Virus record (IMG/VR): IMGVR_UViG_3300045136_000119
Location: 1-48,212 of that record
From: a virus
Reading direction: 5' to 3' (one strand)
DNA: 48,212 nt
The position numbers were made by a program, and so were the translations under genes. Shown here in pieces: positions 6,984-48,212 of the stretch. Numbering within the stretch: position 1 is the first letter of the stretch; every line of letters starts with the position of its first letter. The notes under the pieces were generated by a model. It did not search any database and was not told the origin of the DNA. It saw only the letters and a list, made by a program, of their open reading frames with translations.

Positions 6984-7706
6984 ATGAAACTACAAGAATT
7001 ATTTTTAAAGGAAGAACAAAAATTTTTAATCAATAAATCAGATATTGAGAATTGGTTAATAAAAATGAAAATTAAAAACTACACCATTCATGATAATGGT
7101 ATAGTTGATGTTAATGGAGATGTTAATATTTCTAATAGAAATTTAACACATATACCAGTCCAATTTGGTGAAGTAGATGGTAATTTTGATTGTTCAAATA
7201 ATAAATTAACATCATTAATAGGATCACCAGGGGCAATTGGTGATAGTTTTTATTGTTATGGTAATAAATTAACATCATTACAAGGTGCACCAAAAGAAGT
7301 AGGTAATGGTTTTGATTGTTCAATTAATCAATTAACATCATTAGAAGGTGGACCAAAAGAAGTAGGTTATGGTTTTTATTGTTCACATAATCAATTGACA
7401 TCATTACGTGGTTCTCCAAAAGAGGTTGGTGGAGAATTTAATTGTTCAAATAATAAATTAACATCATTACAAGGTGGACCAAAAGAAGTAGGTTATAGTT
7501 TTTATTGTTATAAAAATAATCTAACTTCATTAGAAGGTGCACCAATAAAAGTAGGTATCAATTTTAATTGTTCAAATAATAAATTAACATCATTACAAGG
7601 TGGACCAAAAGAAGTGGGTGGTAATTTTGATTGTTCATATAATAATTTTAAATCAGAACCAGATCATTCATTTATTAATATTCATGGAGATTTTATCTGG
7701 AAATGA
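6984..7706 (+). CDS. Leucine-rich-repeat protein, left cluster copy 1 (7 repeats)
   Basis: 240 residues. The first 50 residues are a non-repeat cap starting MKLQELFLKEE, a helix, then Y-T-I-H-D-N-G-I-V-D-V-N-G. Seven 21-residue repeats of the pattern N-x-L-T-S-L-x-G-x-P-x-x-V-G-x-x-F-x-C follow, and the protein ends with N-N-F-K-S-E-P-D-H-S-F-I-N-I-x-G-x-F-I-W-K. Each repeat has one Cys and one Asn at fixed places, giving a Cys and Asn ladder along the solenoid. The spacing resembles the short bacterial LRR type (YopM/IpaH). There is no signal peptide. It overlaps the next copy by 4 bases (ATGA). Function unknown; binding of a protein partner is the usual LRR role. Confidence 0.75.
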   Translation: MKLQELFLKEEQKFLINKSDIENWLIKMKIKNYTIHDNGIVDVNGDVNISNRNLTHIPVQFGEVDGNFDCSNNKLTSLIGSPGAIGDSFYCYGNKLTSLQGAPKEVGNGFDCSINQLTSLEGGPKEVGYGFYCSHNQLTSLRGSPKEVGGEFNCSNNKLTSLQGGPKEVGYSFYCYKNNLTSLEGAPIKVGINFNCSNNKLTSLQGGPKEVGGNFDCSYNNFKSEPDHSFINIHGDFIWK

Positions 7707-8677
7707 AACTACAAGAACTATTTTTAAAAGAAGAACAAAAATTCTTAACCAATAAATCAGATATTGAGAATTGGTTAAAACAGATGGGTATTAAAAATTA
7801 TACTATTCATGATAATGGTATAGTTGATGTTAATGGAGATGTTGATATTTCTTTTAGAGAATTAACATATATACCAGTCCAATTTGGTGAAGTAAATGGT
7901 GGTTTTTATTGTACAGGTAATAAATTAATTTCATTGCACGGTTCACCAAAATCTGTTAGTGGTTATTTTAATTGTTCATATAATCAATTAAAAACATTAC
8001 GAAATGGACCAAAAGAAGTAGGTAATTATTTTGATTGTTCAACTAATCAATTAACATCATTAGAAGGTGCACCAAGAGTAGTTGATGATAGTTTTTATTG
8101 TCAAAGTAATAAATTAACATCATTACACGGTTCACCAAGTGAAGTTGGTGGTATTTTTGATTGTTCAAAAAATAAATTAACATCATTAGAAGGTGCACCA
8201 AGAGAAGTAGGTGGTAATTTTTATTGTTACAATAATAAATTGACAACACTACATGGTGGACCAATAGAAATAAATGGTGATTTCAATTGTTCATATAATT
8301 ATTTAACATCATTAGAAGGTGGACCAAGAGAAGTAGGTGGTAATTTTGATTGTACATATAACAAATTGACATCATTACGCGGTGCACCAAAAGACATAGG
8401 TAATGGTTTTTATTGTTCTAACAATAGATTAATATCATTACATGGTGGGCCAAAATATATAAATGGTAATTTTATTTGTTTAAATAACCAATTAACATCA
8501 TTACACGGTTCACCAATAGAAGTAGCTAACACGTTTGATTGTTCAAATAATCAATTAACATCATTAAAAGGTGCACCTAAAGAAGTAGGTGGTAGTTTTT
8601 ATTGTTCAAATAATAATTTTAAATCAAAACCTGATCATTCATTTATTAATATTCATGGAGAATTTATCTGGAAATGA
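7703..8677 (+). CDS. Leucine-rich-repeat protein, left cluster copy 2 (11 repeats)
   Basis: 324 residues, the longest of the eight LRR genes in the window. The N-terminal cap (MKLQELFLKEE to the P-V-Q-F-G-E-V box) is nearly the same as in copy 1, then eleven 21-residue repeats and the common end module. The repeats differ from copy 1 mainly in the two or three residues after G-x-P and in the residue before Cys, which would lie on one face of the solenoid. Start and stop each overlap the adjacent copies by 4 bases. The different repeat number with the same end modules points to gain and loss of whole 63-base units. Confidence 0.75.
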   Translation: MKLQELFLKEEQKFLTNKSDIENWLKQMGIKNYTIHDNGIVDVNGDVDISFRELTYIPVQFGEVNGGFYCTGNKLISLHGSPKSVSGYFNCSYNQLKTLRNGPKEVGNYFDCSTNQLTSLEGAPRVVDDSFYCQSNKLTSLHGSPSEVGGIFDCSKNKLTSLEGAPREVGGNFYCYNNKLTTLHGGPIEINGDFNCSYNYLTSLEGGPREVGGNFDCTYNKLTSLRGAPKDIGNGFYCSNNRLISLHGGPKYINGNFICLNNQLTSLHGSPIEVANTFDCSNNQLTSLKGAPKEVGGSFYCSNNNFKSKPDHSFINIHGEFIWK

Positions 8678-9207
8678 AACTACAAGAATTATTTTTAAAA
8701 GAAGAACAACAATTCTTAACCAATAAATCAGATATTGAGAATTGGTTAAAACAGATGAACATTAAAAATTATACCATTCATGATAATGGTATTGTTGATG
8801 TTAATGGAAATGTTAATATTTCTTTTAAAAAATTAACATATATACCAGTCCAATTTGGTGAAGTGGATGGTAATTTTGATTGTTCATATAATGATTTAAT
8901 ATCATTAAAAGGTGGGCCAAGAGAAGTTGGTGATGGTTTTTATTGTTATCATAATCAATTAACATCATTAAAAGGTGGACCAAAATATGTTGGTAGTAAT
9001 TTTTATTGTTATGGCAATAAATTGATATCATTAGAAGGTGCACCAAGAGAAGTAGGTGGTGGTTTTTATTGTTCAAATAATCAATTAATATCATTACATG
9101 GTGGGCCAAGAGAAGTAGGTGGTGATTTTATTTGTAAAAATAACAATTTTAAATCAGAACCTGATCATTCATTTATTAATATTGGTGGGGATTTTATCTG
9201 GAAATAA
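8674..9207 (+). CDS. Leucine-rich-repeat protein, left cluster copy 3 (4 repeats)
   Basis: 177 residues, ATGA overlap with copy 2. It has the common cap with MKLQELFLKEE, only four repeats and the common end module (N-N-F-K-S-E-P-D-H-S-F-I-N-I-G-G-D-F-I-W-K). It closes the + strand cluster; the next gene, 48 bases on, is on the other strand, with no strong hairpin between them. The short size suggests the solenoid length is not critical, or that copies are specialised for different partners. Confidence 0.75.
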   Translation: MKLQELFLKEEQQFLTNKSDIENWLKQMNIKNYTIHDNGIVDVNGNVNISFKKLTYIPVQFGEVDGNFDCSYNDLISLKGGPREVGDGFYCYHNQLTSLKGGPKYVGSNFYCYGNKLISLEGAPREVGGGFYCSNNQLISLHGGPREVGGDFICKNNNFKSEPDHSFINIGGDFIWK

Positions 9208-9255
9208 GAAAATTTTTTAATAAAATATTTTAAATTTTATAATATATTAATAAAA

Positions 9256-9909
9256 TTAAAAATATCCTTCAAACCATTGTTGCCATGATCCAGGAAAATT
9301 TGCTGGTTGATATAACCAAATTCCACCATTTTTATTTTCTATAGATATATTAATTTTTACCTGATATAAATCACTTACTAATATTGGTGATATCGTTGTA
9401 ATAAAATGAGGACCAGCTGGAAAAATAACCAAAGTCCCCCTTTGTGGAACTAATGAAAAATTATATGCCGGAAATTCTATTTTACCACCATACACTTCTG
9501 TTCTAGGATCTAACGGTGTACGGTCTTGATAATTTTTTAACCATAAAACAGAAGTCAAATCAACATCTTTAATTTTTACCCATTTTTTTCTAAGATATTT
9601 TGAATTTTCACATCCTGGTTGTTGTGCTGGTTTTTTTGCTAATTCTGGAAAATATTGAAATGTTATAGAATTTGTTCCTTTGTATTTAGCATCGTATTTT
9701 TCTTCTATTTTTGGTATATATTCTTTAAATTTATTAAAAATAACTATTTGTAATTCTTCATGTTGTCTTTCCATTGGAACAGGATCACCATCTTTATCTA
9801 AATCACATTGTTCAACACGAATGTTATCTATTATTTGTTCACATAATTTTGGAGAAATAAATTCTTCAACTATTAAAAATGGACTTTTAATTATTTTTTT
9901 ATTAGCCAT
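9256..9909 (-). CDS. 2OG-Fe(II) oxygenase-like protein, metal site apparently altered
   Basis: 217 residues, ATG preceded by GGAG. The C-terminal half has the double-stranded beta-helix pattern of prolyl-4-hydroxylase-type oxygenases: S-V-L-W-L-K-N-Y, Y-G-G-K-I-E-F-P, L-V-P-Q-R-G-T-L-V-I-F-P, then a His at G-P-H-F-I and a basic K-I-N-I strand. The usual H-x-D just before the 'LWL' strand is not seen; by my alignment Lys residues stand there (W-V-K-I-K-D-V-D-L). If so, two of three iron ligands are gone. In marine phages these enzymes are common but substrates are mostly unknown. It is a monocistronic gene behind a late box. Confidence 0.6.
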   Translation of the reverse strand: MANKKIIKSPFLIVEEFISPKLCEQIIDNIRVEQCDLDKDGDPVPMERQHEELQIVIFNKFKEYIPKIEEKYDAKYKGTNSITFQYFPELAKKPAQQPGCENSKYLRKKWVKIKDVDLTSVLWLKNYQDRTPLDPRTEVYGGKIEFPAYNFSLVPQRGTLVIFPAGPHFITTISPILVSDLYQVKINISIENKNGGIWLYQPANFPGSWQQWFEGYF

Positions 9910-9936
9910 AATACTCCTTCGTTTATATACTTTTAA

Positions 9937-9944
9937 TATTTATA
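9937..9944 (-). promoter_or_regulatory. T4-type late promoter box TATAAATA (- strand)
   Basis: Exact late box read on the - strand, 28 bases before the start codon of the oxygenase-like gene at 9909. Confidence 0.5.
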
Positions 9945-9952
9945 TTATAAAT

Positions 9953-10576: not shown

Positions 10577-10582
10577 TTTAAA

Positions 10583-11339: not shown

Positions 11340-12773
11340 TTACTTCTCTATTGTAAAATTTACATTATTAGTATTTGATATTTTTGGGTCAATTAAAACA
11401 TTAGCTAAATCTAAAACTGAACGACCTAAAATAACATCATATTTCATATGATCACGCTCATTAATATTAAATTCAACATTCCTTATTATATTTCCATTAA
11501 TTGAAACATCAACATTAATAACAGGTCTTTCTTCTGTTTCGCTGTCAGGAGTTTTTATTTTAGCAATTCTAGATAGATAAAATTTATATCTATATTTTCC
11601 AAAAGTGAATTTGACTGTATTATCTTTAATTTCTATATCTTTACCATTTATACTACTGTTAGTTGCACCAGTATCAATACGTGCTTCTATTGGTTTCTCA
11701 TCATTAAAATTTTTAATTATAATATTAGTAACTGTGCCGATTATATTATTAGAATTGTTTTCAAGATCAACATCTGTTAAATTATTTTTTTCTTGATAAT
11801 TATCATTTTGCTGTGTTTTTTCTTCTTCATTATTTTCTATTTTATCAGTATCAGTTTTATTATTTTTTGATATATCATCTTCTGTTTTTTCAATTTGATT
11901 ATCACCGTGAATTATTTTATGACATATATCTATTATTTTTTCAGAAATATTAAAATCAACTATTTTTTGTAGAGCTTCATATCCAGGTGAACAATTAATT
12001 TCTAATACTATGAGATCTTCACCATTTTTAATGTAATCTACTGCTATAAAATTTAAATTTACTATTTCTGAACATTTTTTTGCTAATTCTATTTCTTGCT
12101 CACTTGGAAAATAATACTTTAATTCTGAACCTTGATGTGCATTCGTTCTAAAATCATTTTCTGGCACAGATCTACTTGCAGCTGCAATAACCTCATTGTT
12201 TAACATTAATATTCTATAACTTTCTTCATGTTTCAAATATTCTTGAAGAATAAATTTACAATCAATTTTTAAAAGATATTGAACGATAGAACGTAAACTT
12301 TCTATACTGTCAACACGCATTACGCCAATACCATGTGTTCCATAAATTGTTTTTATTATAATTGGAAATTTTCTATCTAATGATTTAACAGCATAATCTA
12401 ATTGATCATAGTTATTTAACATTATTGAATTTGGTGTTTTAATTCCAGCTTTATTTAATGTTATTTGACAGTTTAATTTATTAGAAGCAAGTAATATCCC
12501 ATTTCCAGTATTTAAACATTTAATTCCAGCATTTGATAAATTGTCTACAATAGCGACTTTATATTCTATATTGTTTTCAGATATTCTTGGAATACAAATA
12601 TCTGCTTCTAATAATTTTTCTCCATTATATGATATAAATGGTTCTTCCGAAGCAAAAATATAACAATCATCAAAATTTATGATTTTTATATCATGTCCCT
12701 TTTCTTCTGCTTTCTTTTTTAATTCTTGTGGAACAAAATTTTCGGGTTCAGTTGTTAAAATTATTAATTTCAT
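11340..12773 (-). CDS. RimK-like ATP-grasp ligase fused to a retropepsin-like aspartic protease domain
   Basis: 477 residues. Residues 1-290 are an ATP-grasp enzyme of the RimK family: N-terminal Rossmann-like part, then F-P-I-I-I-K-T-I-Y-G-T-H-G-I-G-V (ATP loop), I-L-Q-E-Y-L and V-L-E-I-N-C-S-P-G (Mg-binding). Such enzymes add glutamate or similar amino acids to a peptide or protein end. Residues 295-340 are an Asn/Glu/Lys-rich linker. Residues 345-475 have the single-domain retropepsin pattern: A-R-I-D-T-G-A-T-N, then Y-D-V-I-L-G-R. The same domain type is RimB (DUF785, 'ATP-dependent zinc protease') encoded beside RimK in bacteria. The fusion puts a ligase and a putative peptidase on one chain. 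Target unknown. Confidence 0.8.
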   Translation of the reverse strand: MKLIILTTEPENFVPQELKKKAEEKGHDIKIINFDDCYIFASEEPFISYNGEKLLEADICIPRISENNIEYKVAIVDNLSNAGIKCLNTGNGILLASNKLNCQITLNKAGIKTPNSIMLNNYDQLDYAVKSLDRKFPIIIKTIYGTHGIGVMRVDSIESLRSIVQYLLKIDCKFILQEYLKHEESYRILMLNNEVIAAASRSVPENDFRTNAHQGSELKYYFPSEQEIELAKKCSEIVNLNFIAVDYIKNGEDLIVLEINCSPGYEALQKIVDFNISEKIIDICHKIIHGDNQIEKTEDDISKNNKTDTDKIENNEEEKTQQNDNYQEKNNLTDVDLENNSNNIIGTVTNIIIKNFNDEKPIEARIDTGATNSSINGKDIEIKDNTVKFTFGKYRYKFYLSRIAKIKTPDSETEERPVINVDVSINGNIIRNVEFNINERDHMKYDVILGRSVLDLANVLIDPKISNTNNVNFTIEK

Positions 12774-13986: not shown

Positions 13987-14508
13987 TTATGTTAAACCTG
14001 TTCCGCTTATTATCCACTCTGTTGATGTTATCTTAAGTGCTGTTGCAATACCATTTGGTGCTAATGTTCTATTTCCAGTAGTACCAGCACCAGCTAACCT
14101 CATAGTATCACTATTTATAGCAATTGTGATTGTACCTGCACCATTTTGATTTACAAATGTTACAGCAGTTCCAATTGGGAATGGAACACTACTATTACTT
14201 GGAATAGTGTAAGTTCTTGAAGATGTATCAGCTGATGGATGTAATATATGTTTTCCAGAATCTGATAATACTAGTGTATATGACGCACTTTGAGAATTTT
14301 GTTCAAGTTGTTTAAGAGAAACTTCAGAACCTATTGGTAATGATATTGCCTCAAGCCATGAAGTTCCATCATATACATAAAGTTTTTTGTCTGGTAATTT
14401 ATAAAATAATTCACCAGTTGATGGTGAACTTGGTAAAGTTGATCCAGAATCAACTGTAAGATTAACTAGTGTTGAACCTTCTAATAAATTAATTCCGTCT
14501 ATTAACAT
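13987..14508 (-). CDS. Short tail-fibre or head-decoration protein
   Basis: 173 residues, AAAGGG before the ATG. Residues 20-60 carry the segment L-P-S-S-P-S-T-G-E-L-F-Y ... K-L-Y-V-Y-D-G-T-S-W-L, the 'label' repeat seen in many phage fibres and also in the fibre gene at 42316. Residues 75-170 are Ser/Thr/Gly-rich beta strands (S-G-K-H-I-L-H-P, Y-T-I-P-S-N-S, V-T-F-V-N-Q-N-G-A-G-T-I-T-I). The latter pattern is common in tail-fibre tips. It stands behind a possible late box and shows higher G+C than the enzymes around it, typical for structural genes here. Confidence 0.65.
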   Translation of the reverse strand: MLIDGINLLEGSTLVNLTVDSGSTLPSSPSTGELFYKLPDKKLYVYDGTSWLEAISLPIGSEVSLKQLEQNSQSASYTLVLSDSGKHILHPSADTSSRTYTIPSNSSVPFPIGTAVTFVNQNGAGTITIAINSDTMRLAGAGTTGNRTLAPNGIATALKITSTEWIISGTGLT

Positions 14509-15535: not shown

Positions 15536-17530
15536 CTATACATTAGATAATATTAAATCAATATGTTCATCATTTAATAATATTCCATTTGGATATATAT
15601 TATCATTCATTTGTTTAACAACATACATATATTTTCCACCTTTTTTAAATGGTCTAAAAATAAATTTTTTATTATTTTCACCTTTTACTGTTACTATAGA
15701 GTTATCACCAAATGCATTTATTAATTTTTCAACTTCTGTGTCAGATAACTTTATTTTCATTTTTTCTGCAGATAACATCATTCCATCAGAACCTAAAGAA
15801 GCAATTTGCCACTTTTTTTCCTCTGGATTTATTTCTGGTTTTTTATGCTTTGATTTTGGCATATCCATATCATCAATAATACTATCATCTTCTAATTCTT
15901 CTACGTTTTCTCTTATTGGGTTTCTTTTAAGAAGATCTTTTGTATATGCAAAACCCTTTATTGAACCAACTTGGTATTTATAACCTTTATTTCCCTTCTC
16001 ATCAACAATCTCATCAGATATTAACGTTACTACATCTAATGGTGAACCGTTAGTTAAGCCAATTCTATGTTTTACACGTTGACCCTTTTTAAACGGAGCT
16101 TTGTTATTAACATCTTGTACTACTATTTCACTTTTTTTTTCTTCTGTTATCTTTGTGTTTTCATTTATTAAATCAATCAACATTGATATTTTATTTCTTA
16201 TTAATTGAATATTTTTAAGACTTGCCTTTTTGTCTAATAGAGATCTTCTTAATTGACTTTTCTTATATTTAAGATTTTCATCTGGTACACCAATAGCTGT
16301 TAACAATGATTCAACAGTGTTTATAAACATATCATTTGCTATATCAACTTCTTCAATAACAGTTTCTGATGCTTGTTCATCAAAATTATGTTTATTCCCC
16401 TCATCATCAGATAACCCTAATGAAATATGTAAATTTTTTAGTATTATCCTCATTTTTGTATTTTTTTGTATACTTAATGAAGTATTTCTAAAAAAAGATC
16501 TTAAGTTGGTTTTTTTAAATTCAAAATTTTCCTTTGGAATTCCAAAAGCAATTAAAATATCAAATAATTGTTTTGATATTTTTTTGATGCCAACATCAGC
16601 TACCTCATCTTTAATATCTATATAACTTTCTTTTACAATGTCGGAAGTATGTAGTTCATCATTAAATCTTTGAAGCCACATTTTTGCACGTGGATTTTTT
16701 TGTATCATTCTTGATGAATCAACAATTCCGGTTCTTACTTTAGAAAAATTTCTAGTTAAAATTAATTGTGGAACATTTAATGTTAATAATGTATCCAAAA
16801 TTAATTTAGTGATAGGTGTCGCAAATTTAAAACGTTTTACAACTATATTTTTTTGTCTATCATTTTCATCATATTCAATGTCATCATCTTTTTCTTCTAT
16901 ATCATCATTTTTTTCTATTAATTTTTCTTCACCTAAAACTTTTTTTAAAAATTTATTTCCTAATGTTAACATTTTGTTTTCTCCTTCATTTTTTAATTTA
17001 ATATCATTTTTAGATAAATTATTTGTCTCAAAATCTTCATTTTCATTTTCATTTTCATCTTCATATTCATCTTCATCTTCATATTCATCTTCATATTCAT
17101 CTTCATCTTCATCTTCATCTTCATCTTCATCTTCATCTTCATCTTCATCTTCATCATCATTAGGCCATTCAACAGCAACTATATCAAAATCAGTAGAAAG
17201 TTTTTCTAATGCTGATTCAATACTGTCTTCTGTTCCTAACATTTTGCTCATTGCTTCTTCAAATTTATCTGCATCTTTTACGTTTACATATACTTTAACT
17301 ATTTCATTATCATCAGTTTCTAATCCAAATGTAACAGTTTCAATTTCTTCAGATTCTTCTTTAGATTTATTTAGTATATTATTTACTTCATTTTTATCAA
17401 TTTTTTTAATTTCTGAATCATCATTAATTTTAGAAATTAATGAAAGATCAATTTTTGGTGATTGACCTAATGCTTGAACTTCTGTTGTTATTTGTTTATT
17501 TTCGTTAATATCTTTAAATAAATTTTTCAT
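15536..17530 (-). CDS. Large acidic protein with an Asp/Glu tract and three internal repeats
   Basis: 664 residues, GAGG before the ATG. Residues 125-164 are an almost pure Asp/Glu run, coded by a repeated TTCATC hexamer on the + strand. Residues 238-292, 318-369 and 401-452 are three diverged copies of one helical unit (L-L-x-x-x-G-V-P-x-x-x-x-x-x-K-x-x-x-L-R then a helix). The C-terminal 200 residues contain a small beta domain (G-Q-R-V-K-H-R-I-G-L-T-N-G). No catalytic motif. Acidic tracts and neighbours suggest a scaffold, internal head or DNA-mimic role; none is proven. Confidence 0.5.
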   Translation of the reverse strand: MKNLFKDINENKQITTEVQALGQSPKIDLSLISKINDDSEIKKIDKNEVNNILNKSKEESEEIETVTFGLETDDNEIVKVYVNVKDADKFEEAMSKMLGTEDSIESALEKLSTDFDIVAVEWPNDDEDEDEDEDEDEDEDEDEDEYEDEYEDEDEYEDENENENEDFETNNLSKNDIKLKNEGENKMLTLGNKFLKKVLGEEKLIEKNDDIEEKDDDIEYDENDRQKNIVVKRFKFATPITKLILDTLLTLNVPQLILTRNFSKVRTGIVDSSRMIQKNPRAKMWLQRFNDELHTSDIVKESYIDIKDEVADVGIKKISKQLFDILIAFGIPKENFEFKKTNLRSFFRNTSLSIQKNTKMRIILKNLHISLGLSDDEGNKHNFDEQASETVIEEVDIANDMFINTVESLLTAIGVPDENLKYKKSQLRRSLLDKKASLKNIQLIRNKISMLIDLINENTKITEEKKSEIVVQDVNNKAPFKKGQRVKHRIGLTNGSPLDVVTLISDEIVDEKGNKGYKYQVGSIKGFAYTKDLLKRNPIRENVEELEDDSIIDDMDMPKSKHKKPEINPEEKKWQIASLGSDGMMLSAEKMKIKLSDTEVEKLINAFGDNSIVTVKGENNKKFIFRPFKKGGKYMYVVKQMNDNIYPNGILLNDEHIDLILSNV

Positions 17531-37191: not shown

Positions 37192-38579
37192 AGTGTAATA
37201 TCTCTACATTCATAAAAATAATTTTCTAATTCTGGAAATGTTTCAACGAAATTTGTTTTTCTTCTTTTATCAGCTTCTGTATAATATAAATAAAAATCTT
37301 TCATTAATGTTTTTTCTGGTTCTTTAGAATTCATATATGCACACAATCTATCTATTTGATCTATTTCTTCTAAATAAAACATACCAATTTTTTTATTATC
37401 TGAATTAGATCTAACAAAATCTTTCCATTCTTCTGTGTATTTCTTTTTTAATTCATTTGGCAATTGTGTAACAGATATAAATGGTGGATGTCTTAAATAT
37501 GGTATATTAATGCTTACTCTATTATAAGCATTTGTTATGTTATGTTTTTGTCTTAATTTTAATATAAATTCTAAAAATTTTTTAAAACTTGGTGATCCTA
37601 ATAAATTAGCTGTTACCATAAAATTAATTCTTGCTCTTTTATCTGTCATTTCTAAATATGTTTCTATATTTTTACAAAATAACGTCCAATCCATACCATA
37701 TCTTATATATTCACATTGTTTTTCTATTGATTCAGCGCTAGTAAATAACATAAATGCTTTTACCTTATTATTTTTAATAATATCATTTGAGTATGATATT
37801 AATTTAAGAACTAAATCATGTGGAATTCCCATATTACTATTAATAGCAAATGTTAATTCTTTTCTTGGATTGTCTTTGATATAATCTAATATTTTCCATG
37901 TATTTTCTGATAATAATGGTTCTCCACCAGTTATTCTAAATGTATGTAAATCATTGTATAAAGTTGGCCACCATTTCCAAAATGCTTCAATATATGGATT
38001 ATATTCCTTATGATGAATTGGAAATCTTCCAATTCTTTTTAGATAATCTAAATTATGTAATTCATATTCTGATAATTTGTATGGCCCATGATGTTGTATT
38101 TCTTCCATCCATCTAGATGAAATATCTGGCATACAATATGTGCATTTAAAATTACATATATTTTCAAACGCTATTTCCATATATGTTGGATTAATGTTTT
38201 CACCCAATTTAGAATCTAAAACTTTATAAAAATATGGAGCAGCCCAACTACTAGAACTTTTATATATTCTATCACTTATTGTTTTTTCTGGAAGATTTTC
38301 AATATTCCAACAATATTGACATTCTTTAGTTTGAATACCTTCCAACATTTCTTTTCTAGCAAAAATTTTTATTGGCGTATTATGTAGTGAATTAGGGTTA
38401 TTTAATAAATCATTTTCATCTATTTTATGCGAAGTTGGATGATGACACGAATGTGTTGTTCCATTATATAAATTAGTAGTAACTTGTAACCATTTCGCTA
38501 AACAAAATGTTGGTGACACAGAATCTAATTTTTCTTTAAATTTTTTAACTTTGTCTAGGTGTTCTTTATTTGATAACAT
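37188..38579 (-). CDS. Radical SAM enzyme with extra Cys clusters (twitch/SPASM type)
   Basis: 463 residues. C142-x3-C146-x2-C149 in C-N-F-K-C-T-Y-C is the site of the radical SAM iron-sulfur cluster. Before it lie further Cys (C26, C45, and C87-x2-C90 in E-C-Q-Y-C-W), and R-I-T-G-G-E-P near 220 is the SAM-binding G-G-E. The extra cysteines at both ends suggest a second cluster as in twitch/SPASM enzymes, which often modify peptides. It overlaps both glycosyltransferase genes by 1-4 bases, so the three products are made together. The substrate is not known. Confidence 0.8.
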   Translation of the reverse strand: MLSNKEHLDKVKKFKEKLDSVSPTFCLAKWLQVTTNLYNGTTHSCHHPTSHKIDENDLLNNPNSLHNTPIKIFARKEMLEGIQTKECQYCWNIENLPEKTISDRIYKSSSSWAAPYFYKVLDSKLGENINPTYMEIAFENICNFKCTYCMPDISSRWMEEIQHHGPYKLSEYELHNLDYLKRIGRFPIHHKEYNPYIEAFWKWWPTLYNDLHTFRITGGEPLLSENTWKILDYIKDNPRKELTFAINSNMGIPHDLVLKLISYSNDIIKNNKVKAFMLFTSAESIEKQCEYIRYGMDWTLFCKNIETYLEMTDKRARINFMVTANLLGSPSFKKFLEFILKLRQKHNITNAYNRVSINIPYLRHPPFISVTQLPNELKKKYTEEWKDFVRSNSDNKKIGMFYLEEIDQIDRLCAYMNSKEPEKTLMKDFYLYYTEADKRRKTNFVETFPELENYFYECRDITL

Positions 38580-39550
38580 TATTTTACTCCATTATCGGCC
38601 TCAAATTCTGTTGTTAATATTCCGGTGCGTCTTGGATTTTCATAAACGTATTTAAAAAATTTACTTTGGTTTTCATCTAATAATGCAATATCTAATCCAG
38701 TGTGTTTTTGTATATTTTCACCTATTTTAATAATTTCTTTTATTAATAAATCTTTTGACCATGAATATTTAGTATATTTACAATAATAATCTTTTCCAAT
38801 AAATTTATCTTTAATTTCATTATTCCAAAAATCTTTAAACCAATCATAATTACTTATTGAGCTTATATCCCAATCTGTCAAATTGGCCATATATAAACCA
38901 AGCCTTGAACCATATATAGACCATAAACCATTTTCAACATCTGCACCAACAGACATCCAAATTATTAACCTTTTAAGATTTTTTTCATGTATCGTTGTTT
39001 TAATGAGATTTGGTGGTATTTTTTTACCCCTATCAAGGGACATTTTTACACCTTCTCTCATACCCGCTCTAAATGCTTGAAATGGTGAACCATTTGGATA
39101 TGTTGTTGAATATATATTATTTAATTGGATATATTTTTTATCCCAACAAAAATCAACAGTTTCTTCATCTCGTTCTGCATTTTCGTGTGTTTTCATATTT
39201 AAAACGAAATCTTTTGTCCAAAGTTTTAAACCACCATTTCCATAAACTAAACCATTAATAAAATTTTTACCAGCCCACGAAAAAACACAGTCATTATATA
39301 TTTCTGGAATATTTATTTTATTTTCTAAAAATTTTTCATCTATTAAATTATCACCATCTACTGTAATAAATCTATCTGTTTCAGATTGATTTGCACATGC
39401 TTTATGAGCATTATCAAAACCTTTTACACCATGAACACGTTTAGCCCATGGTGCAAAATTTAAAAGATTTGCCCAAAATTCTTCACATCTTGGTTCATCA
39501 TATGATATGAAAAAAATATCAAATTCTGTCATATTATATTCTTTACTCAT
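38579..39550 (-). CDS. Glycosyltransferase-like protein B (paralogue of A)
   Basis: 323 residues. F-I-S-Y-D-E-P near 14-20, A-K-R-V-H-G-V-K-G, then V-D-G-D-N (D65-x-D67), and further on N-G-S-P-F-Q-A-F-R-A-G-M-R-E-G-V-K, all matching gene A at 36496. The extra 90 residues at the end are helical. So two related transferases flank the radical SAM gene. The start M-S-K-E-Y-N-M-T-E-F has a second ATG at residue 7 that is also possible. It overlaps the next gene upstream by 8 bases. Confidence 0.6.
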   Translation of the reverse strand: MSKEYNMTEFDIFFISYDEPRCEEFWANLLNFAPWAKRVHGVKGFDNAHKACANQSETDRFITVDGDNLIDEKFLENKINIPEIYNDCVFSWAGKNFINGLVYGNGGLKLWTKDFVLNMKTHENAERDEETVDFCWDKKYIQLNNIYSTTYPNGSPFQAFRAGMREGVKMSLDRGKKIPPNLIKTTIHEKNLKRLIIWMSVGADVENGLWSIYGSRLGLYMANLTDWDISSISNYDWFKDFWNNEIKDKFIGKDYYCKYTKYSWSKDLLIKEIIKIGENIQKHTGLDIALLDENQSKFFKYVYENPRRTGILTTEFEADNGVK

Positions 39551-40106
39551 TTAAAAACTCCATATAATAATTATTAAATATTCTTTTTGTAAATATTGAA
39601 TATTGATCACGTATATAATCTATATTAAATGTATTATCATTTAATTTATCTAAATAAATAATACGTAATAAATTAGACGGATCATTTTTACCAGTTATAT
39701 AAAAGCATATAGGTTCTTTAATTAAATCTTTTATTTCATTAGAAATAAAAATTTTAATTTTTTTTGATTTTTTATAAAATATTAATTTTATATCAACAGA
39801 ACTAAATTTTTTATTTACATTATTTTCAATTATTTCTACTAAAGGTAATGTGTCTATTAAATTGATCGCTTTTTCAACTTTTTTAATAGCCATTTCTTTT
39901 TCTAATAATGAATATTTATTATCATATGATTTAAAAACAATCAATGATTTATATGATTTTTTACCTATTAAAATATCATTGGCTAATGATTCATCAATTT
40001 CAAAACACACAGTATATTTAGTATCTGTATCTCTTGATTTTTTTACAGGAGATATTCTTAAAATTTTATTGATTTTAGTATCATAAAAACAATAATATTT
40101 AGACAC
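39543..40106 (-). CDS. Unknown protein inside the glycosyltransferase island
   Basis: 187 residues from a GTG start with GGAG nearby. Lys/Asn/Ile-rich; strands at the start (Y-Y-C-F-Y-D-T-K-I-N-K-I-L-R-I-S-P-V) and in the middle (V-D-I-K-L-I-F-Y-K-K-S-K-K-I-K-I-F-I-S). No P-loop, no D-x-D, no Cys motif. It overlaps both neighbours, so it must belong to the same transcript. It might be an adapter or a substrate of the modifying enzymes, but that is a guess. Confidence 0.4.
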   Translation of the reverse strand: MSKYYCFYDTKINKILRISPVKKSRDTDTKYTVCFEIDESLANDILIGKKSYKSLIVFKSYDNKYSLLEKEMAIKKVEKAINLIDTLPLVEIIENNVNKKFSSVDIKLIFYKKSKKIKIFISNEIKDLIKEPICFYITGKNDPSNLLRIIYLDKLNDNTFNIDYIRDQYSIFTKRIFNNYYMEFLNE

Positions 40107-40956
40107 CTAATTTTTTCTCCATATAATAAATTTTTTCGTCTGTTAAAAAATTCTTTACATAATAATGTAAAGGATATATTTGTAAATAGTTTCCTATTTT
40201 GCATATACATTCTGGCGTAAAATATACTGGTATCATTTTTGTCCAGTCTTCATTTGAATAAATATCATCTGGCCAATTTTGCATTTTTGTTTTCATATGC
40301 ACGAAAGTTGGCATCAAAATATTTCTATTATGATTTAATTCTTCAAATTCTAATATTTTAGCAGCTATAGCAAAAACAACATCTGTACTAACATAATGTG
40401 GTCTATGAATTGGTTCTAAAAATTCTTCAAAAAATTTCTGCCAATTATTAAATATCAATTCTGATAATTTAAAAAATTCAAAAACTTTATCTGTTTTCTT
40501 AAAATAAAAAAATGCAGAATATACATTAGGTAAATTATTTTCAACAAAAACTTTTCTATAATATGTTGATGTAGCTTTTTCGTTTCTATATGTTAAAACG
40601 TCCGTTGTGAATACAGCTTCATTTCCTTCTAATATAGACCACCAATTAGTTATGTCTGTAAAGAAAAGCATATCTGCATCTAATTTTATTGTTTCATCAT
40701 ATGGAGACATATAAATGGATTTCCATTCATTTTCGAGTTTCCATTTTGATTTTTTTGCATCATCTTTCCATGGTATTTCGACTATTTCATCGAATACCAT
40801 TTTATATTTTGATGGTATTTTTTTGATTTCTTGTTTTGTTACACCTATTGATAAATTTGAATATTTTTTTTGACTTAATTTTAATGACAATGCAAGACCA
40901 TATGCCATTCGTTGGTATTGCTTTCCTTGAGCAATAGTAAAAAATCCCTTACTCAT
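40099..40956 (-). CDS. Glycosyltransferase-like protein C (GT-A fold, GT8-like)
   Basis: 285 residues. S-P-Y-D-E-T-I-K-L-D-A-D-M-L-F with D93-x-D95 is the metal/sugar-nucleotide site of GT8-type enzymes; Y-S-A-F-F-Y-F-K-K-T and a late His region (F-V-H-M-K-T-K-M) agree. It is a distant paralogue of the gene at 40949 (same S-P-Y-D-E-T frame). It overlaps that gene by 8 bases. A retaining sugar transfer is expected for GT8; the acceptor is unknown. Confidence 0.6.
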   Translation of the reverse strand: MSKGFFTIAQGKQYQRMAYGLALSLKLSQKKYSNLSIGVTKQEIKKIPSKYKMVFDEIVEIPWKDDAKKSKWKLENEWKSIYMSPYDETIKLDADMLFFTDITNWWSILEGNEAVFTTDVLTYRNEKATSTYYRKVFVENNLPNVYSAFFYFKKTDKVFEFFKLSELIFNNWQKFFEEFLEPIHRPHYVSTDVVFAIAAKILEFEELNHNRNILMPTFVHMKTKMQNWPDDIYSNEDWTKMIPVYFTPECICKIGNYLQIYPLHYYVKNFLTDEKIYYMEKKLGV

Positions 40957-41845
40957 TTATAACTCTCATTATATTATCAAAATTATTTAATATAGACAGT
41001 TTATTCATACAATGAATGTTTATTCCTTTTATTGTAGATGCGTAAAATTTCCATTTTTCTTTCATATCATTAACAAATACACATATTTCATTTTTATTTT
41101 TAAATTTATATAATTGATCTTGATCAGTTAATGTTAATAATGGCCCACCAGGTAATGGTTTAATTTCATCATTTTCTAGAAAACCATTTAATACATGTAA
41201 TGCTATAGAAAATGCATAATCATTTCTAAATAAACTACCAGGAAAGTCATAAACTAATTTATAAAATTCCCAATGATTTTTAATATGTTCAACAAAATCA
41301 AATAAAAGTTTAACCCTTGGCGTTTTCTTGAAATAAATGGCAGTTGCCCAAAACATTTTAATTCCATATGGATTTAATCTAAATTCTGGGCCAGTAAGTT
41401 TTTCATAATGTAAATTTATTGCATCTGAATTTATTAAAATATCCTCTTCACAACCCCATATTGTATTCAAAACATCATTTAAAACAAAATAATCAACATC
41501 TAACAAAAGTGTTTCATCATATGGTGATAATTTATATATTTCAGATCTGGATTTATTTTTAAATTCTGCATTTATTGAGTGATATTGTGTATCTCTATAT
41601 ACTCGAATATTTTTATTATTTAAAATTGAATCATCATTAAATATGATAATATTATCAAAAATTGATTCAAATTGTTTTTGATTATTTTTAAAATAATCCC
41701 ATCCAATACTGTAATCATCAGTAATTATTGATATGGGAATCCCATGCATATTTTTATTAACAAGACTTCCAGCAAGATGTACTAATTTTAAGTAATCAAT
41801 ACGATCATTATTGATAGCAAAAAAAACTATTCCACGTTTTGACAT
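40949..41845 (-). CDS. Glycosyltransferase-like protein D (GT-A fold)
   Basis: 298 residues. F-F-A-I-N-N-D-R at the start, then L-S-P-Y-D-E-T-L-L-L-D-V-D-Y-F with D116-x-D118. F-W-A-T-A-I-Y-F-K-K-T-P-R follows, like the Y-F-K-K-T of gene C. The C-terminus has a possible late His in I-N-I-H-C-M-N. It opens the modification island; only 6 bases separate it from the conserved small gene upstream, which may belong to the same transcript. Confidence 0.6.
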   Translation of the reverse strand: MSKRGIVFFAINNDRIDYLKLVHLAGSLVNKNMHGIPISIITDDYSIGWDYFKNNQKQFESIFDNIIIFNDDSILNNKNIRVYRDTQYHSINAEFKNKSRSEIYKLSPYDETLLLDVDYFVLNDVLNTIWGCEEDILINSDAINLHYEKLTGPEFRLNPYGIKMFWATAIYFKKTPRVKLLFDFVEHIKNHWEFYKLVYDFPGSLFRNDYAFSIALHVLNGFLENDEIKPLPGGPLLTLTDQDQLYKFKNKNEICVFVNDMKEKWKFYASTIKGINIHCMNKLSILNNFDNIMRVINE

Positions 41846-44483: not shown

Positions 44484-44500
44484 TCTGTTAAATTAACAGA
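44484..44500 (-). promoter_or_regulatory. 17-base palindrome beside the PhoH ribosome site
   Basis: TCTGTTAA-A-TTAACAGA is a perfect palindrome ending at the base before GAGG, the ribosome site of phoH. It could be an operator or a small hairpin that hides the site. A 10-codon frame (M-G-L-S-V-N-L-T-E-R) runs through it from about 44511 and stops before phoH. Confidence 0.45.
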
Positions 44501-44640
44501 TAAACCCATTTTATTATAATATATTAACTTAATTTTGTTATTCCTCCTTTCTTTAATAGTGTTATGAACATATTTTAAATTATTTATAACCTGTCATAAT
44601 TAATTAAAATTTCATAAAAATATTTTTATTAAAAATTAAA

Positions 44641-44710
44641 TTAAATTTGATAAACAAATATTTTTGATATCAATAAATGATTTATCTGGTTTTGATTCAA
44701 AATTGTTATT
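44641..44710 (-). pseudogene. Remnant end module of an LRR gene
   Basis: Just past the stop of the last LRR gene the - strand reads N-N-N-F-E-S-K-P-D-K-S-F-I-D-I-K-N-I, clearly the common LRR end module (N-N-F-K-S-E-P-D-H-S-F-I-N-I) in a diverged form, followed by a stop. No repeats precede it. It is the leftover of a deleted or recombined sixth copy. Confidence 0.7.
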
Positions 44711-45567
44711 TAGTTCCATTCCCAGATAAAACCTCCACCAACATTAATAAATGAATGATCTGGCTCTGATTTAAAATTATTATTAAAACAATAAAAACCA
44801 CCACCAACTTCTCTTGGTGCACCTAGTAATGATGTTAATAGATTATTTGAACAATCAAAATTACCACCTATTTCTTTTGGTGCACCTTTTAATGAAGTTA
44901 ATTTATTACTATAACATGTAAAATTGTCACCTACTTCTCTTGGTGCACCTAGTAATGATGTTAATAGATTATTTGAACAATTAAAATTGCCACTCACTTC
45001 TTTTGGTCCACCTTCTAATGATGTTAATTTATTATCTGAACAATTAAAATCACCATCTATCTCTTTTGGCGCACCTAGTAATGATGTTAATTTATTATTT
45101 GAACAATAAAAATCACCACTTACTTCCATTGGTGCACCTTGTAAAGATGTTAAATCATTATATGAACAATTAAAATCATTATTTACTTCTCTTGGTGCAC
45201 CTTTTAATGATTTTAATTGATTATCATGACAATCAAAATCACCACCAACATATTTTGGCGCACCTTCTAATGATTTTAAAATATTAAATGAACAATCAAA
45301 ATTACCACCCACTTCTCTTGGTGCACCTAGTAATGATTTTAATTGACTAAGTGAACAATTAAAATTACCATCTACTTCACCAAATTGAACTGGTATATAT
45401 TCTAATTTTTTATTAGAAATATCAACATCTCCATTAACATCAACTATACCATTATCATGAATTGTATAATTTTTAATATACATTTCTTTTAACCAATTCT
45501 CTATTTCTTGTTTATCGGTTAAAAATTTATGTTGTTCTTCTTTTAAAAATAATTCTTGTAGTTTCAT
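44710..45567 (-). CDS. Leucine-rich-repeat protein, right cluster (9 repeats)
   Basis: 285 residues, last gene of the right cluster. Common cap (MKLQELFLKEE, with one extra residue, Q-H-K), nine 21-residue repeats, and the end module with an altered last residue run (G-G-G-F-I-W-E-W-N). Five of nine repeats start L-L-G-A-P, a variant that is rare in the left cluster. ATGA overlap with the gene upstream. Its 3' end is followed by the end-module remnant, so this gene's tail may be a recombination joint. Confidence 0.75.
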   Translation of the reverse strand: MKLQELFLKEEQHKFLTDKQEIENWLKEMYIKNYTIHDNGIVDVNGDVDISNKKLEYIPVQFGEVDGNFNCSLSQLKSLLGAPREVGGNFDCSFNILKSLEGAPKYVGGDFDCHDNQLKSLKGAPREVNNDFNCSYNDLTSLQGAPMEVSGDFYCSNNKLTSLLGAPKEIDGDFNCSDNKLTSLEGGPKEVSGNFNCSNNLLTSLLGAPREVGDNFTCYSNKLTSLKGAPKEIGGNFDCSNNLLTSLLGAPREVGGGFYCFNNNFKSEPDHSFINVGGGFIWEWN

Positions 45568-46097
45568 TTCCAGATAAATTCTCCACCAATATTAATAAAT
45601 GAATGATTTGGTTCTGATTTAAAATTGTTATTTTTACAAATAAAATTACGACCTACTTCTTTTGGTGCACCTTGTAATGATGTTAATTGATTATCTGAAC
45701 AATTAAAATAACCACCCACTTCTCTTGGTCCACCTTGTAAAGATATTAATTGATTATCTGAACAATCAAAATTACCACCTACTTCTTTTGGTGCACCTTG
45801 CAATGATGTTAATTTATTACCATGACAATAAAAACCATCACGAACTGCTCTAGGCGCACCTTGCAATGATATTAATTGATTATGTGAACATGAAAAATAA
45901 CCATCTACTTCACCAAATTGAACTCGTAGATATGTTAATCTTTTATTAGAAATACCAACATTACCATTAACATCAACTATACCATTATCATGAATAATAT
46001 AATTTTCAATATATAATTTATTTAACCAATTCTCTATTTCTTGTTTATTAGTTAAGAATTGTTGTTCTTCTTTTAAAAATAGTTCTTGTAGTTTCAT
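45564..46097 (-). CDS. Leucine-rich-repeat protein, right cluster (4 repeats)
   Basis: 177 residues if it starts at the ATG at 46097, which overlaps the previous stop (ATGA) and gives the common MKLQELFLKEE beginning; an ATG two codons upstream is less likely. Only four repeats, like the shortest copy of the left cluster. The P-V-Q-F box is changed to R-V-Q-F. All parts of the family are present. Confidence 0.75.
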   Translation of the reverse strand: MKLQELFLKEEQQFLTNKQEIENWLNKLYIENYIIHDNGIVDVNGNVGISNKRLTYLRVQFGEVDGYFSCSHNQLISLQGAPRAVRDGFYCHGNKLTSLQGAPKEVGGNFDCSDNQLISLQGGPREVGGYFNCSDNQLTSLQGAPKEVGRNFICKNNNFKSEPNHSFINIGGEFIWK

Positions 46098-46879
46098 TTC
46101 CAAATAAATTTTCCGTTAATATCAATAAATGAATGATCTGGTTCTGATTTAAAATTGTTATATTTACAAAAAAAATTACCACCTACTTCTTTTGGTGCAC
46201 CTTCTAATGATGTTAATTTATTATTTGAACAATCAAAAAAACTACCAACATATATTGGTGCACCTTTTAATGATGTTAATTTATTATGCGAACAATGAAA
46301 ACCACCACTAACTTCTCTTGGTCCACCGTGTAATGTTATTAATTCATTATTATTACACATGAAATCTCCACCTACTTCTCTTGGTGCGCCTTCTAGTGAT
46401 GTTAATTTATTTATATGACAATCAAAATTACCACCTACTTCTTTTGGCGCACCTAGTAATGATGTTAATAGATTATTAAAACAATAAAAACCAATGTTAA
46501 TTTCTCTTGGTGCACCTTGTAATGATATTAATTGATTATATGAACAATCAAAAACACCATCAACTTCTATTGGTCCACCTTCTAATGATTTTAATTGATT
46601 ATTATAACACTCAAAATTACCACCTACTTTTCTTGGCGATCCTTTTAATGATGTTAATTTATTAAATGAACAATTAAAATAACCATTCACATTACCAAAT
46701 TGAACTGGTATATATGTTAATTTTTTAAAATGAATATCAACATCTCCATTAACATCAACTATACCATTATCATGAATGTTATAGTTTTTAATTTTCATTT
46801 TTTTTAACCAATTTTCTATTTCTTGTTTATTGGTTAATAATTTATGTTCTTCTTCTTTTAAAAATAATTCTTGTAGTTT
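46094..46879 (-). CDS. Leucine-rich-repeat protein, right cluster (8 repeats)
   Basis: About 261 residues (start codon shared with the ATGA at 46879-46882). Eight repeats. Bases 46230-46411 are almost identical (two mismatches seen) to 47989-48170 in the first gene of the cluster, and the block near 46530-46680 is close to 47259-47405 in its neighbour. So this gene is a mosaic of its neighbours. The cap has H-K-L-L in place of Q-F-L. Confidence 0.75.
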   Translation of the reverse strand, partial: KLQELFLKEEEHKLLTNKQEIENWLKKMKIKNYNIHDNGIVDVNGDVDIHFKKLTYIPVQFGNVNGYFNCSFNKLTSLKGSPRKVGGNFECYNNQLKSLEGGPIEVDGVFDCSYNQLISLQGAPREINIGFYCFNNLLTSLLGAPKEVGGNFDCHINKLTSLEGAPREVGGDFMCNNNELITLHGGPREVSGGFHCSHNKLTSLKGAPIYVGSFFDCSNNKLTSLEGAPKEVGGNFFCKYNNFKSEPDHSFIDINGKFIWK

Positions 46880-47793
46880 CATTTCCAGATAAATTCTCCA
46901 CTAATATCAATAAATGAATGATCAGGTTCTGATTTAAAATTGTTATATGAACAATTAAAATCACCACCCACTTCTTTTGGTGCACCTTCTAATGATACCA
47001 ATTTATTGCCATAACAATAAAAATTATTACCAACATATTTTGGTCCACCTTTTAATGATGTTAATTTATTATAATAACAGATAAAATTATCACTTACTTC
47101 TCTTGGTGCACCTTCTAATGTTGTTAATTTATTATATGAACAATCAAAAAAGCCACCAACTTCTTTTGGTCCACCCTGTAATGATGTTAATTGATTATGT
47201 GAACATATAAAATCACTATCTATTTCTCTTGGTGCACCGCGTAATGATGTTAATTGATTATATGAACAATTAAAAACACCATCAATTTCTATTGGTCCAC
47301 CTTCTAATGATTTTAATTGATTATTATAACAATCAAAATTACCACCTACTTTTATTGGCGACCCTTTTAATGATGTTAATTTATTAAATGAACAATCAAA
47401 ATTACCATTTATTTCTCTTGGTGCATCCTGTAATGTTGTTAATTTATTATCTGAACAATTAAAATTACCACTTACTTCTCTTGGTGCACCTTGTAATGAT
47501 GTTAATTGATTATTTGAACAATAAAAATCATCACCTACTTCCTTTGGTCCACCTTTTAATGACGTTAATTGATTATATGAACAATCAAAAACACCATCTA
47601 CTTCACCAAATTGAACTGGTATATATTCTAATTTTTTATTAGAAATATTAACATCACCATTAACATCAACGATACCATTATCATGAATGGTATAATTTTC
47701 ATTAATGTTCATCTTTTTTAACCAATTCTCTATTTCTTGTTTATCGGTTAAGAATTGTTGTTCTTCTTTTAAAAATAGTTCTTGTAGTTTCAT
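46879..47793 (-). CDS. Leucine-rich-repeat protein, right cluster (10 repeats)
   Basis: 304 residues, ten repeats, common cap with one inserted residue (N-I-N-E-N-Y-T-I-H). A repeat with G replaced in S-L-x-G (L-Q-D-A-P) is unique to it. Starts and stops overlap the neighbours by 4 bases. Its repeats near residues 125-190 share long identical runs with the downstream gene. Confidence 0.75.
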   Translation of the reverse strand: MKLQELFLKEEQQFLTDKQEIENWLKKMNINENYTIHDNGIVDVNGDVNISNKKLEYIPVQFGEVDGVFDCSYNQLTSLKGGPKEVGDDFYCSNNQLTSLQGAPREVSGNFNCSDNKLTTLQDAPREINGNFDCSFNKLTSLKGSPIKVGGNFDCYNNQLKSLEGGPIEIDGVFNCSYNQLTSLRGAPREIDSDFICSHNQLTSLQGGPKEVGGFFDCSYNKLTTLEGAPREVSDNFICYYNKLTSLKGGPKYVGNNFYCYGNKLVSLEGAPKEVGGDFNCSYNNFKSEPDHSFIDISGEFIWK

Positions 47794-48212
47794 TTCCAGA
47801 TAAAATCTCCCCCAATATTAATAAATGAATGATCAGGTTCTGATTTAAAATTGTTATGTGAACAATCAAAATCACAACCCACTTCTCTTGGTGCATCTTT
47901 TAATGATATCAATTTATTGCTATAACAATAAAAATTACTACCAATATATTTTGGTCCACCTTGTAATGATGTTAATTGATTATCTGTACAATCAAAAAAA
48001 CTACCAACATATATTGGTGCACCTTTTAATGATGTTAATTTATTATGCGAACAACGAAAACCACCACTAACTTCTCTTGGTCCACCATGTAATGTTATTA
48101 ATTCATTATTATTACACATGAAATCTCCACCTACTTCTCTTGGTGCGCCTTCTAGTGATGTTAATTTATTATTAAAACAATAAAAACTAATATTAATTTC
48201 TCTTGGTGCACC
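47790..48212 (-). CDS. Leucine-rich-repeat protein, 5' end outside the window (5 repeats seen)
   Basis: The frame stays open to the window's last base, so the first ATG seen (48119) lies within a repeat and is not the true start. About 140 residues are visible: five repeats and the common end module. It is the most upstream LRR gene seen; how many more copies lie beyond cannot be told. Confidence 0.7.
   Translation of the reverse strand, partial: GAPREINISFYCFNNKLTSLEGAPREVGGDFMCNNNELITLHGGPREVSGGFRCSHNKLTSLKGAPIYVGSFFDCTDNQLTSLQGGPKYIGSNFYCYSNKLISLKDAPREVGCDFDCSHNNFKSEPDHSFINIGGDFIWK

Follow-up and report, generated by a model that had tools for sequence, protein, structure and literature searches.

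The internal head proteins of T4-type phages are the closest described systems to the genes discussed here. As far as the accessible parts of the sources go, the internal proteins of the T-even phages are a diverse set with only the tag in common (PMC3012670), T4 Ip1, Ip2 and Ip3 each block a different GmrSD enzyme (PMC12373910), loss of ipIII abolishes growth on strain ECOR17 (PMC9391042), and Alt, which is annotated as capsid-located and host-entering, is counted among the proteins with a capsid-targeting sequence, or CTS (PMC5694885). The present analysis deals with a viral record of 48,212 bases (IMGVR_UViG_3300045136_000119, positions 1–48,212, hereafter the window) that carries two clusters of leucine-rich repeat (LRR) genes, whose products begin with one short N-terminal tag, MKLQELFLKE. 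The reading that we favour, with a probability that we put somewhat above even, is that the LRR proteins are injected internal head proteins of a large T4-type phage, which would carry them as a recombining repertoire against host defences.

The window contains eight paralogous open reading frames (ORFs) of the cysteine-type LRR, seven of them complete and starting with MKLQELFLKEE, and the eighth cut by the window end. The left cluster, on the plus strand, consists of L1 (6984–7706; 240 amino acids, 7 units, counted as full units ahead of the end module, as in all that follows), L2 (7703–8677; 324 amino acids, 11 units) and L3 (8674–9207; 177 amino acids, 4 units). The right cluster, on the minus strand, consists of R1 (44710–45567; 285 amino acids, 9 units), which is the last gene of a longer run of 12, R2 (45564–46097; 177 amino acids, 4 units; listed as 45564–46103 with a TTG start, the homologous start being the ATG at 46097), R3 (46094–46882; 262 amino acids, 8 units, several of them nearly identical to units of R4 and R5), R4 (46879–47793; 304 amino acids, 10 units) and R5 (47790–48212), which has at least 5 units before the window end truncates it and is whole in the longer contig G001 (36830–37492; 220 amino acids, 6 units). 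All six gene junctions are 4-base ATGA overlaps (those on either side of L2 at 7703–7706 and 8674–8677), the F-x-C spacing is exactly 21 throughout, each complete protein ends in a module of 26–28 residues, and one cap reads MKLQELFLKEEE where the others have ..EEQ. Tandem Repeats Finder gives these arrays scores of 279 to 737 with periods of 63, 126 and 189, so that they are not due to chance. A previous reading of this stretch, made from the sequence alone (the sequence-only reading), had described eight genes with one N-terminal cap, a 21-residue unit and one end module, joined by ATGA overlaps in two clusters about 35 kb apart on opposite strands; the recount of ORFs and repeats agrees, with 35.5 kb measured between the clusters. 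The unit numbers that it gave for the right cluster (9, 4, 8, 10 and at least 5) also hold, and those for the left cluster stand in the order 7, 11, 4 instead of 4, 7, 11.

Other contigs extend the view of this phage. Window bases 10961–48212 correspond to bases 1–37252 of G001, a viral contig of 184,280 bases from the same phage, with one mismatch in the 37,252 bases compared; G002 (93 kb), also from this phage, adds approximately 1.2 kb beyond G001; and G003 (21 kb) and G004 (17 kb), which are identical across their overlap, probably continue the genome, to judge from sequence comparison. The join between G002 and G003 is uncertain, since it consists of exactly 127 identical bases, beyond which 135 of the 934 compared positions differ. 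Strain variation was considered for this junction and the difference was not counted as allelic, because 127 shared bases followed by divergence look like an assembly-graph overlap. The LRR genes analysed in these contigs number 22, with a longest run of 12: three in the left cluster, 12 in the right run (to which the right cluster extends in G001, every junction being a 4-base overlap), two at 46.8–48.2 kb of G001, a degenerate one at 139 kb, and four from G002 and G003, besides which a further partial copy lies at the end of G003. The end module is kept in 21 of the 22, and the gene at G001 139098–139592 is without a normal one. Stretches consisting of the tag only, for example the mini-ORF MKLLELFEQKLLI followed by a stop codon, are found upstream of G001:139592 and G003:17676 and are apparent deletion remnants of LRR genes.

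The N-terminal tag, which as such was absent from the sequence-only reading, is likely the key to the function of these proteins. In L1 it occupies codons 1–10 (6984–7013, plus strand), a predicted cleavable tag of the capsid-targeting type, and the start is identical in each complete copy of the window; among the 22 genes, 21 begin with MKLQELFL (one of these with MKLQELFLEE) and the remaining one with MKLSDLFE. Nonsynonymous (pN) and synonymous (pS) differences per site make the tag the most constrained of the segments measured: codons 1–9 of 21 genes give a pN of 0.004 and a pS of 0.217 (pN/pS of approximately 0.02), the six codons ahead of the folded cap in the same number of genes 0.149 and 0.133, the folded-cap segment in 19 genes 0.088 and 0.117, and the end module 0.078 and 0.223. 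In the AlphaFold2 (AF2) model of L1, residues 1–10 are the sole stretch of three or more residues with a predicted local distance difference test score (pLDDT) under 50, that is, they are predicted to be disordered and apart from the folded domain. The T4 record offers close parallels, with the N-termini MELITELFDE in Alt, MKTYQEFIAEA in ipII and ipIII and MAKINELLRE/S in gp24, and SFLTE/A at the end of the 65-residue propeptide of gp23 (the slash marks the end of the propeptide; lengths according to the accessible parts of PMC9958956 for gp24 and PMC5694885 for gp23). The hydrophobic-x-E ending is common to all of these and to MKLQELFLKE, so that the LRR proteins begin with a short tag of the style seen in T4-type CTS internal head proteins, and MKLQELFLKE looks like a modular tag of the capsid-targeting type.

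The modular character is suggested by the presence of the same style of N-terminus on unrelated proteins of one phage. The motif MK[LVIMF]-polar-[ED]-[LIFM]-[LFIYW], composed after the list of N-termini had been inspected, opens 6 of the 282 non-LRR ORFs of this phage and none of 969 internal methionines, an imperfect control (p = 1.3e-4). The six include a 5'-3' deoxyribonucleotidase, and the tag-like start MFKKTFKQFILE is seen on a NUDIX protein of this phage. With a broader motif the counts are 14/282 against 12/892 in this phage and 15/273 against 17/1016 in T4 (p = 9e-4 in both), and the seven T4 matches of the 15 that could be identified from annotation are ipII, ipIII, gp21, gp22, gp24, alt and DNA ligase. 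In G003, two genes with the starts MKMTFKQFIND and MITFKDFIIES are flanked by tail-tube and terminase genes and stand beside a head-closure-like gene named by eye from G005, a contig of a related phage. In G005 itself (locus L062, 5952–6518) a kinase-like protein (PHROG 15752, 2.1e-15) starts with MKVHELFEE directly 3' of two tagged LRR genes; the eight nominally non-LRR matches to the narrow motif in that contig are mostly LRR relatives missed by the filter, one being kinase-like.

Such sharing is also seen in another phage. In G008, a viral record of 192 kb, the tag MxIL..YINEKL opens 53 of 265 ORFs and only 2 of 1436 internal methionines; 21 of the tagged ORFs are LRR genes, four tagged genes lie directly 3' of gp23, and the C-terminal parts fall into seven clusters without mutual BLAST similarity (26, 21 and 2 members, and four singles). 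The largest cluster, comprising the gene at 8871–9590 and 25 similar ones, is a second repeat family, BspA/DUF285-like by eye, with the same tag as the LRR proteins of that phage. Broader motifs open 17 of 445 ORFs in G007 (10 of them LRR) and 12 of 229 in G010 (6 LRR and one LRR-cap fragment), against none of 1495 and 974 internal methionines, respectively; these phage-specific motifs were composed after the LRR tags were known. The likely ends of the gp23 propeptides, SLNE/S in G007 and MLNE/S in G008, resemble by eye the tags FINE/S and YINE/K.

These phages belong to a wider set, obtained by scanning viral contigs with the LRR sequences of G005, which returned 313 coding stretches, the best 80 of which form 71 loci. 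The LRR genes at these loci are often arranged in arrays with a common N-terminus that is specific to the phage (MKLKQLFES, MKRISNYKTFINES, MKYLLESSKFN, MKHLIQYRLFES, MKILDSNEYINEKL, MKKLLESLLEQD and others). Under a loose tag rule (M[KRE], then [LIVF]-x-E within approximately 18 residues), 82 of 120 LRR ORFs and 70 of 381 other ORFs qualify at 41 de-duplicated loci, array members not being independent of one another, and under a stricter rule 69 of 120 and 38 of 381 do; the 30 loci dropped beforehand were those of this phage, of G005 and three contigs of its sample, near-duplicates and second loci of one contig. At 35 of the 41 loci there is an LRR ORF that passes the filter (the other six have none), and in 21 of these the loose rule is satisfied by the majority. 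With regard to head genes, gp23 exceeds the cut-off in 9 of 20 LRR-array records, a chosen set, including all eight longer than 180 kb, and gp21 is found in 9 of the 20 at E ≤ 0.01, six of them over the cut-off. In G009, where gp21 and gp23 are Pfam matches and gp20 and gp22 were named by eye, two LRR genes follow gp23 at a distance of 1.6 kb, one opposite-strand ORF intervening. Around 79 gp23 ORFs, the loose rule also fits 152 of the 415 neighbouring ORFs, a count that comes from homologous loci, includes the protease-like gene and was given no weight.

What the tag precedes is a repeat domain of a well-known type. Across 162 units from the 22 genes, positions 1 (Phe), 3 (Cys), 8, 11 and 15 are invariant, and positions 2, 4, 5, 7, 12 and 21 carry 1.9–2.9 bits, followed by position 20 with 1.8, in keeping with the earlier statement that variation falls on a few positions of the unit. 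The best match in a profile search against the PDB is Internalin-J (3bz5, E 1.7e-21), followed by SspH1 (4nkh, 5e-6). Structure prediction, which the sequence-only reading had proposed as a check, gives an LRR fold: the AF2 model of L1 (6984–7706) has a mean pLDDT of 89.6 and an LRR-like series of short strands that span unit positions 21-1-2, and its final 20 residues are less certain (block means of 68 and 59). With this model Foldseek places the SspH1 LRR (4nkg) first in the PDB with an E of 2.5e-3 and a probability of 1.00, no PDB match reaching an E of 0.001, and finds eight matches at E ≤ 0.001 in the viral library BFVD, the top one a protein of Marseillevirus LCMAC102 (2.5e-8) and the third an LRR protein of an uncultured Caudovirales phage. 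Units, profile, AF2 model and Foldseek thus agree on the Cys-type LRR fold, with its 21-residue unit, invariant Cys and parallel strands. In LRR geometry, variable positions of this kind sit on the concave side, the usual ligand face, and on that established ground positions 21, 2, 4, 5 and 7 would face the concave side here.

Searches for other known functions gave little. A Pfam scan of the eight window proteins finds LRRNT over the cut-off in one and LRR_4 in another, the rest having sub-cut-off LRR-type or DUF4893 matches or nothing, and no non-LRR domain over the cut-off in any of the eight. An effector of the NEL type was rejected, there being no C-terminal NEL E3 ligase domain in that scan, and so was a known anti-phage defence gene: in a PADLOC run on 10 proteins, the two LRR proteins are without a match, and a tag-bearing protein has one weak DRT match (2e-4). 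PHROG 21719 and 7816 match the repeats (best E 2.8e-18), with no function in the table returned. The claim that the family is not derived from known LRR effector families can be answered only in part, in that the closest solved structures are Internalin-J and the SspH1/IpaH LRRs and no non-LRR Pfam domain accompanies the repeats. A chromosomal homologue with 43% identity over query residues 20–238 is present in an Arcobacter metagenome-assembled genome (PKUJ01000021.1, locus L266, 6001–7074); it does not open with an MK..ELF-type sequence in the frame that was read and is a possible cellular relative or a hint of the host.

The units are mosaics of one another across paralogues. Those of different genes differ on average at 13.3 of 63 bases, and runs of consecutive units match consecutive units of another gene with 0–2 differences, the partner changing along the gene; exact tracts common to paralogues reach 131 bases, several of them at unequal unit numbers. 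Comparing changes at variable and framework positions, as had been suggested, gives a pN/pS of 1.73 for the six variable positions, as against 0.63 for the rest of the unit (157 distinct units; the positions were picked from the same data). Repeat number differs between near-identical assemblies of a relative: in this related phage, loci L151 and L157 have no differences over 3,800 bases upstream of the LRR gene and one over 1,357 bases downstream, and yet L157 has one unit more in this gene (9, against 8 in L151), in which the first half of unit 4 is joined to the second half of unit 3. A third locus, L163, with 8 units and 10 base differences from L151, is likewise a rejoining of the same units. 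Loci L143 and L144 have one and the same sequence between base 2889 and the end of L144; further upstream they differ, and the switch lies inside an LRR gene. The one-unit difference is what unequal crossing-over would give, and short-read assembly could also make such chimeras. Invariant repeats in related phages, which would have spoken against diversification, are not what this relative shows; the two assemblies of this phage itself agree over the five right-cluster genes, the sole window LRR genes in the overlap, with no change visible. The "self-diversifying binding repertoire" of the sequence-only reading is therefore supported as regards diversification, by the mosaic units, the contrast in pN/pS and the one-unit change in a relative; binding itself we infer.

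Diversification looks like the work of recombination and not of a diversity-generating retroelement, because no reverse transcriptase (PF00078) is found in any of the four records searched (the genome is incomplete); among 14 control genomes the same search is positive in four, three of them over the cut-off. A retroelement of this type was rejected on that basis.

Further, supporting evidence comes from the sequence TATAAATA, which we take to be the T4 late-promoter box. A copy at 6941–6948 (plus strand) precedes the left cluster's first gene by 43 bases, and another lies 51 bases ahead of the gene that heads the run of 12 on the right, as would fit late transcription of both clusters. Upstream of genes, sense and antisense copies number 42:17 in G001, 2:1 in G003, 6:1 in G005 and 22:8 in T4, counts made in an AT-rich genome without a shuffle control.

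Taken together, these observations can be assembled into a mechanism. Late in assembly, the tag of some 10 residues would attach each LRR protein to the core scaffold of the prohead, and the prohead protease would remove it after the hydrophobic-x-E site. Packaged in this way, the folded LRR domain would leave the head together with the DNA when the next cell is infected. In the new host it would bind proteins, most probably those of the first defence response, in the manner of T4 IP1, IP2 and IP3. The arrays would constitute the repertoire, variable on the concave LRR face and constant in tag, framework and end module, and unequal crossing-over and gene conversion, between the 63-base units and between near-identical gene junctions, would alter the number and content of the units.

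Several points weigh against this reading. The LRR target and the counter-defence role rest on analogy. Neither gp21 (PF03420) nor gp23 (PF07068) is found in four records, three of this phage and one of its relative G005 (the genome is incomplete), and among the best 80 matches of a gp23 scan of viral contigs none comes from the two samples of this phage. Internal methionines are imperfect as a control for start motifs; the broader motif is non-specific, since DNA ligase is one of its seven identified T4 matches, and its enrichment is weak in phage CBB (15/583 against 30/2253, p = 0.03) and not significant in the non-LRR ORFs of G005 (5/66 against 8/315, p = 0.056). Motifs close to the LRR tags do not open any of the 419 non-LRR ORFs of G007, and of the 376 in G009 they open 2, one apparently an LRR-cap relative. 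The patterns of the viral-contig scan included the tag, which favours tagged genes, and the loose rule lets through 18% of non-LRR ORFs as well as locus L140, tagless by eye. Tagged genes are not in the majority at 14 of the 35 loci with an LRR ORF, among them L184, which belongs to a phage with gp21 and gp23; L187 and L188 are tagless arrays as well.

The strongest alternative, which we consider unlikely though deserving of real weight, is that the LRR proteins act inside the infected cell in the same infection, in host takeover or superinfection exclusion, and that the shared N-terminus is an element of translation initiation or localisation. It would accommodate the tagless arrays of some other phages and the Arcobacter homologue without this N-terminus. 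The shared N-terminus is not just an RNA element, because its amino acids are held while synonymous sites vary; it resembles those of T4 Alt and the internal proteins, and a like motif opens unrelated proteins. The late-promoter-like boxes ahead of the clusters, and a tag predicted to be disordered on a protein otherwise predicted to be well folded, also tell against action in the same infection.

We regard it as distinctly improbable that the tag instead anchors the LRR proteins outside the virion, on tail or capsid fibres, as adhesins, which the MLPF-tagged Kelch, RCC1 and laminin-G proteins of phages CBB and GAP32 may be. Internalin-J, the nearest solved relative, is an adhesin. The tag, however, is unlike MLPF[SP] and like the T4 internal-protein N-termini with their hydrophobic-x-E ending, and tag-like starts occur on enzymes (NUDIX, nucleotidase) that are sensible inside a cell. 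Virions of RaK2-like phages do contain repeat proteins with a common N-terminus, according to the accessible part of PMC5259590. Least probable of all, and by our estimate very improbable, is that the arrays are a neutral by-product of recombination without binding function: near-identical junctions and caps are good substrates for unequal crossing-over, and the tag-only mini-ORFs and the gene at 139098–139592 would fit this reading, but the end module is kept in nearly all genes, the difference in pN/pS between framework and variable positions is unexpected under neutral drift, and arrays of the same build, with N-termini of another kind, are found again in other phages.

A wider proposal can also be made, which we hold tentatively and place a little below even: many large T4-type phages may possess a tag-addressed, self-recombining LRR arsenal, with up to tens of binders per genome, loaded into the head through a phage-specific tag and injected, a receptor-like repertoire that would evolve with the lineage against variable host defence proteins. 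The tag would then be a general loading address for swapped repeat scaffolds (Cys-LRR, BspA/DUF285-like) and enzymes. If the LRR arrays are the T4 system enlarged to over 20 binders that recombine, they would account for a sizeable part of the "hypothetical" genes in such phages, provide a sequence rule for spotting injected proteins, and be a natural source of binders of defence proteins. A search of the open-access literature, with most subscription papers outside its reach, returned no paper linking capsid targeting with phage LRR proteins. In their available text, a comparison of jumbo phages (PMC7824862) and a review (PMC13282480) do not contain "leucine-rich" or "LRR", and PMC7765460 lists a BspA-family LRR gene and, separately, a phiKZ-like internal head protein.

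Some other features of these contigs may be recorded. Approximately 21 copies of the 6-base sequence ATCTTC at 17033–17160 of the window encode an Asp/Glu run in the ORF 15536–17530. The product of 11340–12773 resembles, by eye, a fusion of a RimK-type ATP-grasp ligase with an aspartyl-protease-like part at the C-terminus, and the genes of the run at 36496–41845 resemble, also by eye, those for glycosyltransferases and a radical-SAM protein. A similar N-terminus (M.I.G......S.. NLTV..G) on products of very unequal lengths, encoded at window 13987–14508 and at G001 91005–94031 and 103547–103942, is perhaps a fibre-anchoring module. In G003, bases 1–4050 hold a long array with a period of approximately 144 bases, located in ORFs, several of which start with MNPILQII.SSYSS.

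Among known systems, the T4 set of IP1, IP2, IP3 and Alt is the nearest in organisation, since it has the short hydrophobic-x-E tag and several such otherwise unrelated proteins per phage; the present family differs in its payload, a 21-residue Cys-LRR, in its more than 20 recombining copies, mostly coupled by ATGA, and in that its packaging is a prediction. Internalin-J of Listeria, whose repeat is also a 21-residue Cys repeat, is similar in its Cys-type LRR and is the best profile match, whereas the phage proteins have short caps, a phage-type N-terminus and, by eye, neither a secretion signal nor an anchor to the surface. The LRRs of the effectors SspH1, IpaH and YopM share the fold, but where an E3 ligase domain would be expected the phage proteins have the end module of 26–28 residues, and with the giant-virus and phage LRR proteins of BFVD the likeness is in fold only.

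The RaK2-like jumbo phages present a different case. CBB and GAP32 (loci L072 and L071) carry the N-terminus MLPF[SP].. on clustered Kelch, RCC1 ("DNA condensation") and laminin-G-like proteins, several of which were detected in virions by mass spectrometry according to the accessible part of PMC5259590, and RCC1-type proteins of phAPEC6 stand in its virion list in the part available of PMC7247149. Both tag and repeat folds differ from those described here, and the location of these proteins is probably external. The LRR proteins of the window do not have the MLPF[SP] N-terminus of that external virion type, and the CBB and GAP32 paralogues were rejected as direct proof of the tag on account of their different N-terminus. 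The RaK2-like phages nevertheless show a similar logic, and because the style of the tag, the multiplicity of the genes and their diversification fit a set of injected internal proteins, the LRR family is best placed as a probable variant of that kind, and not yet as a proven member of it.

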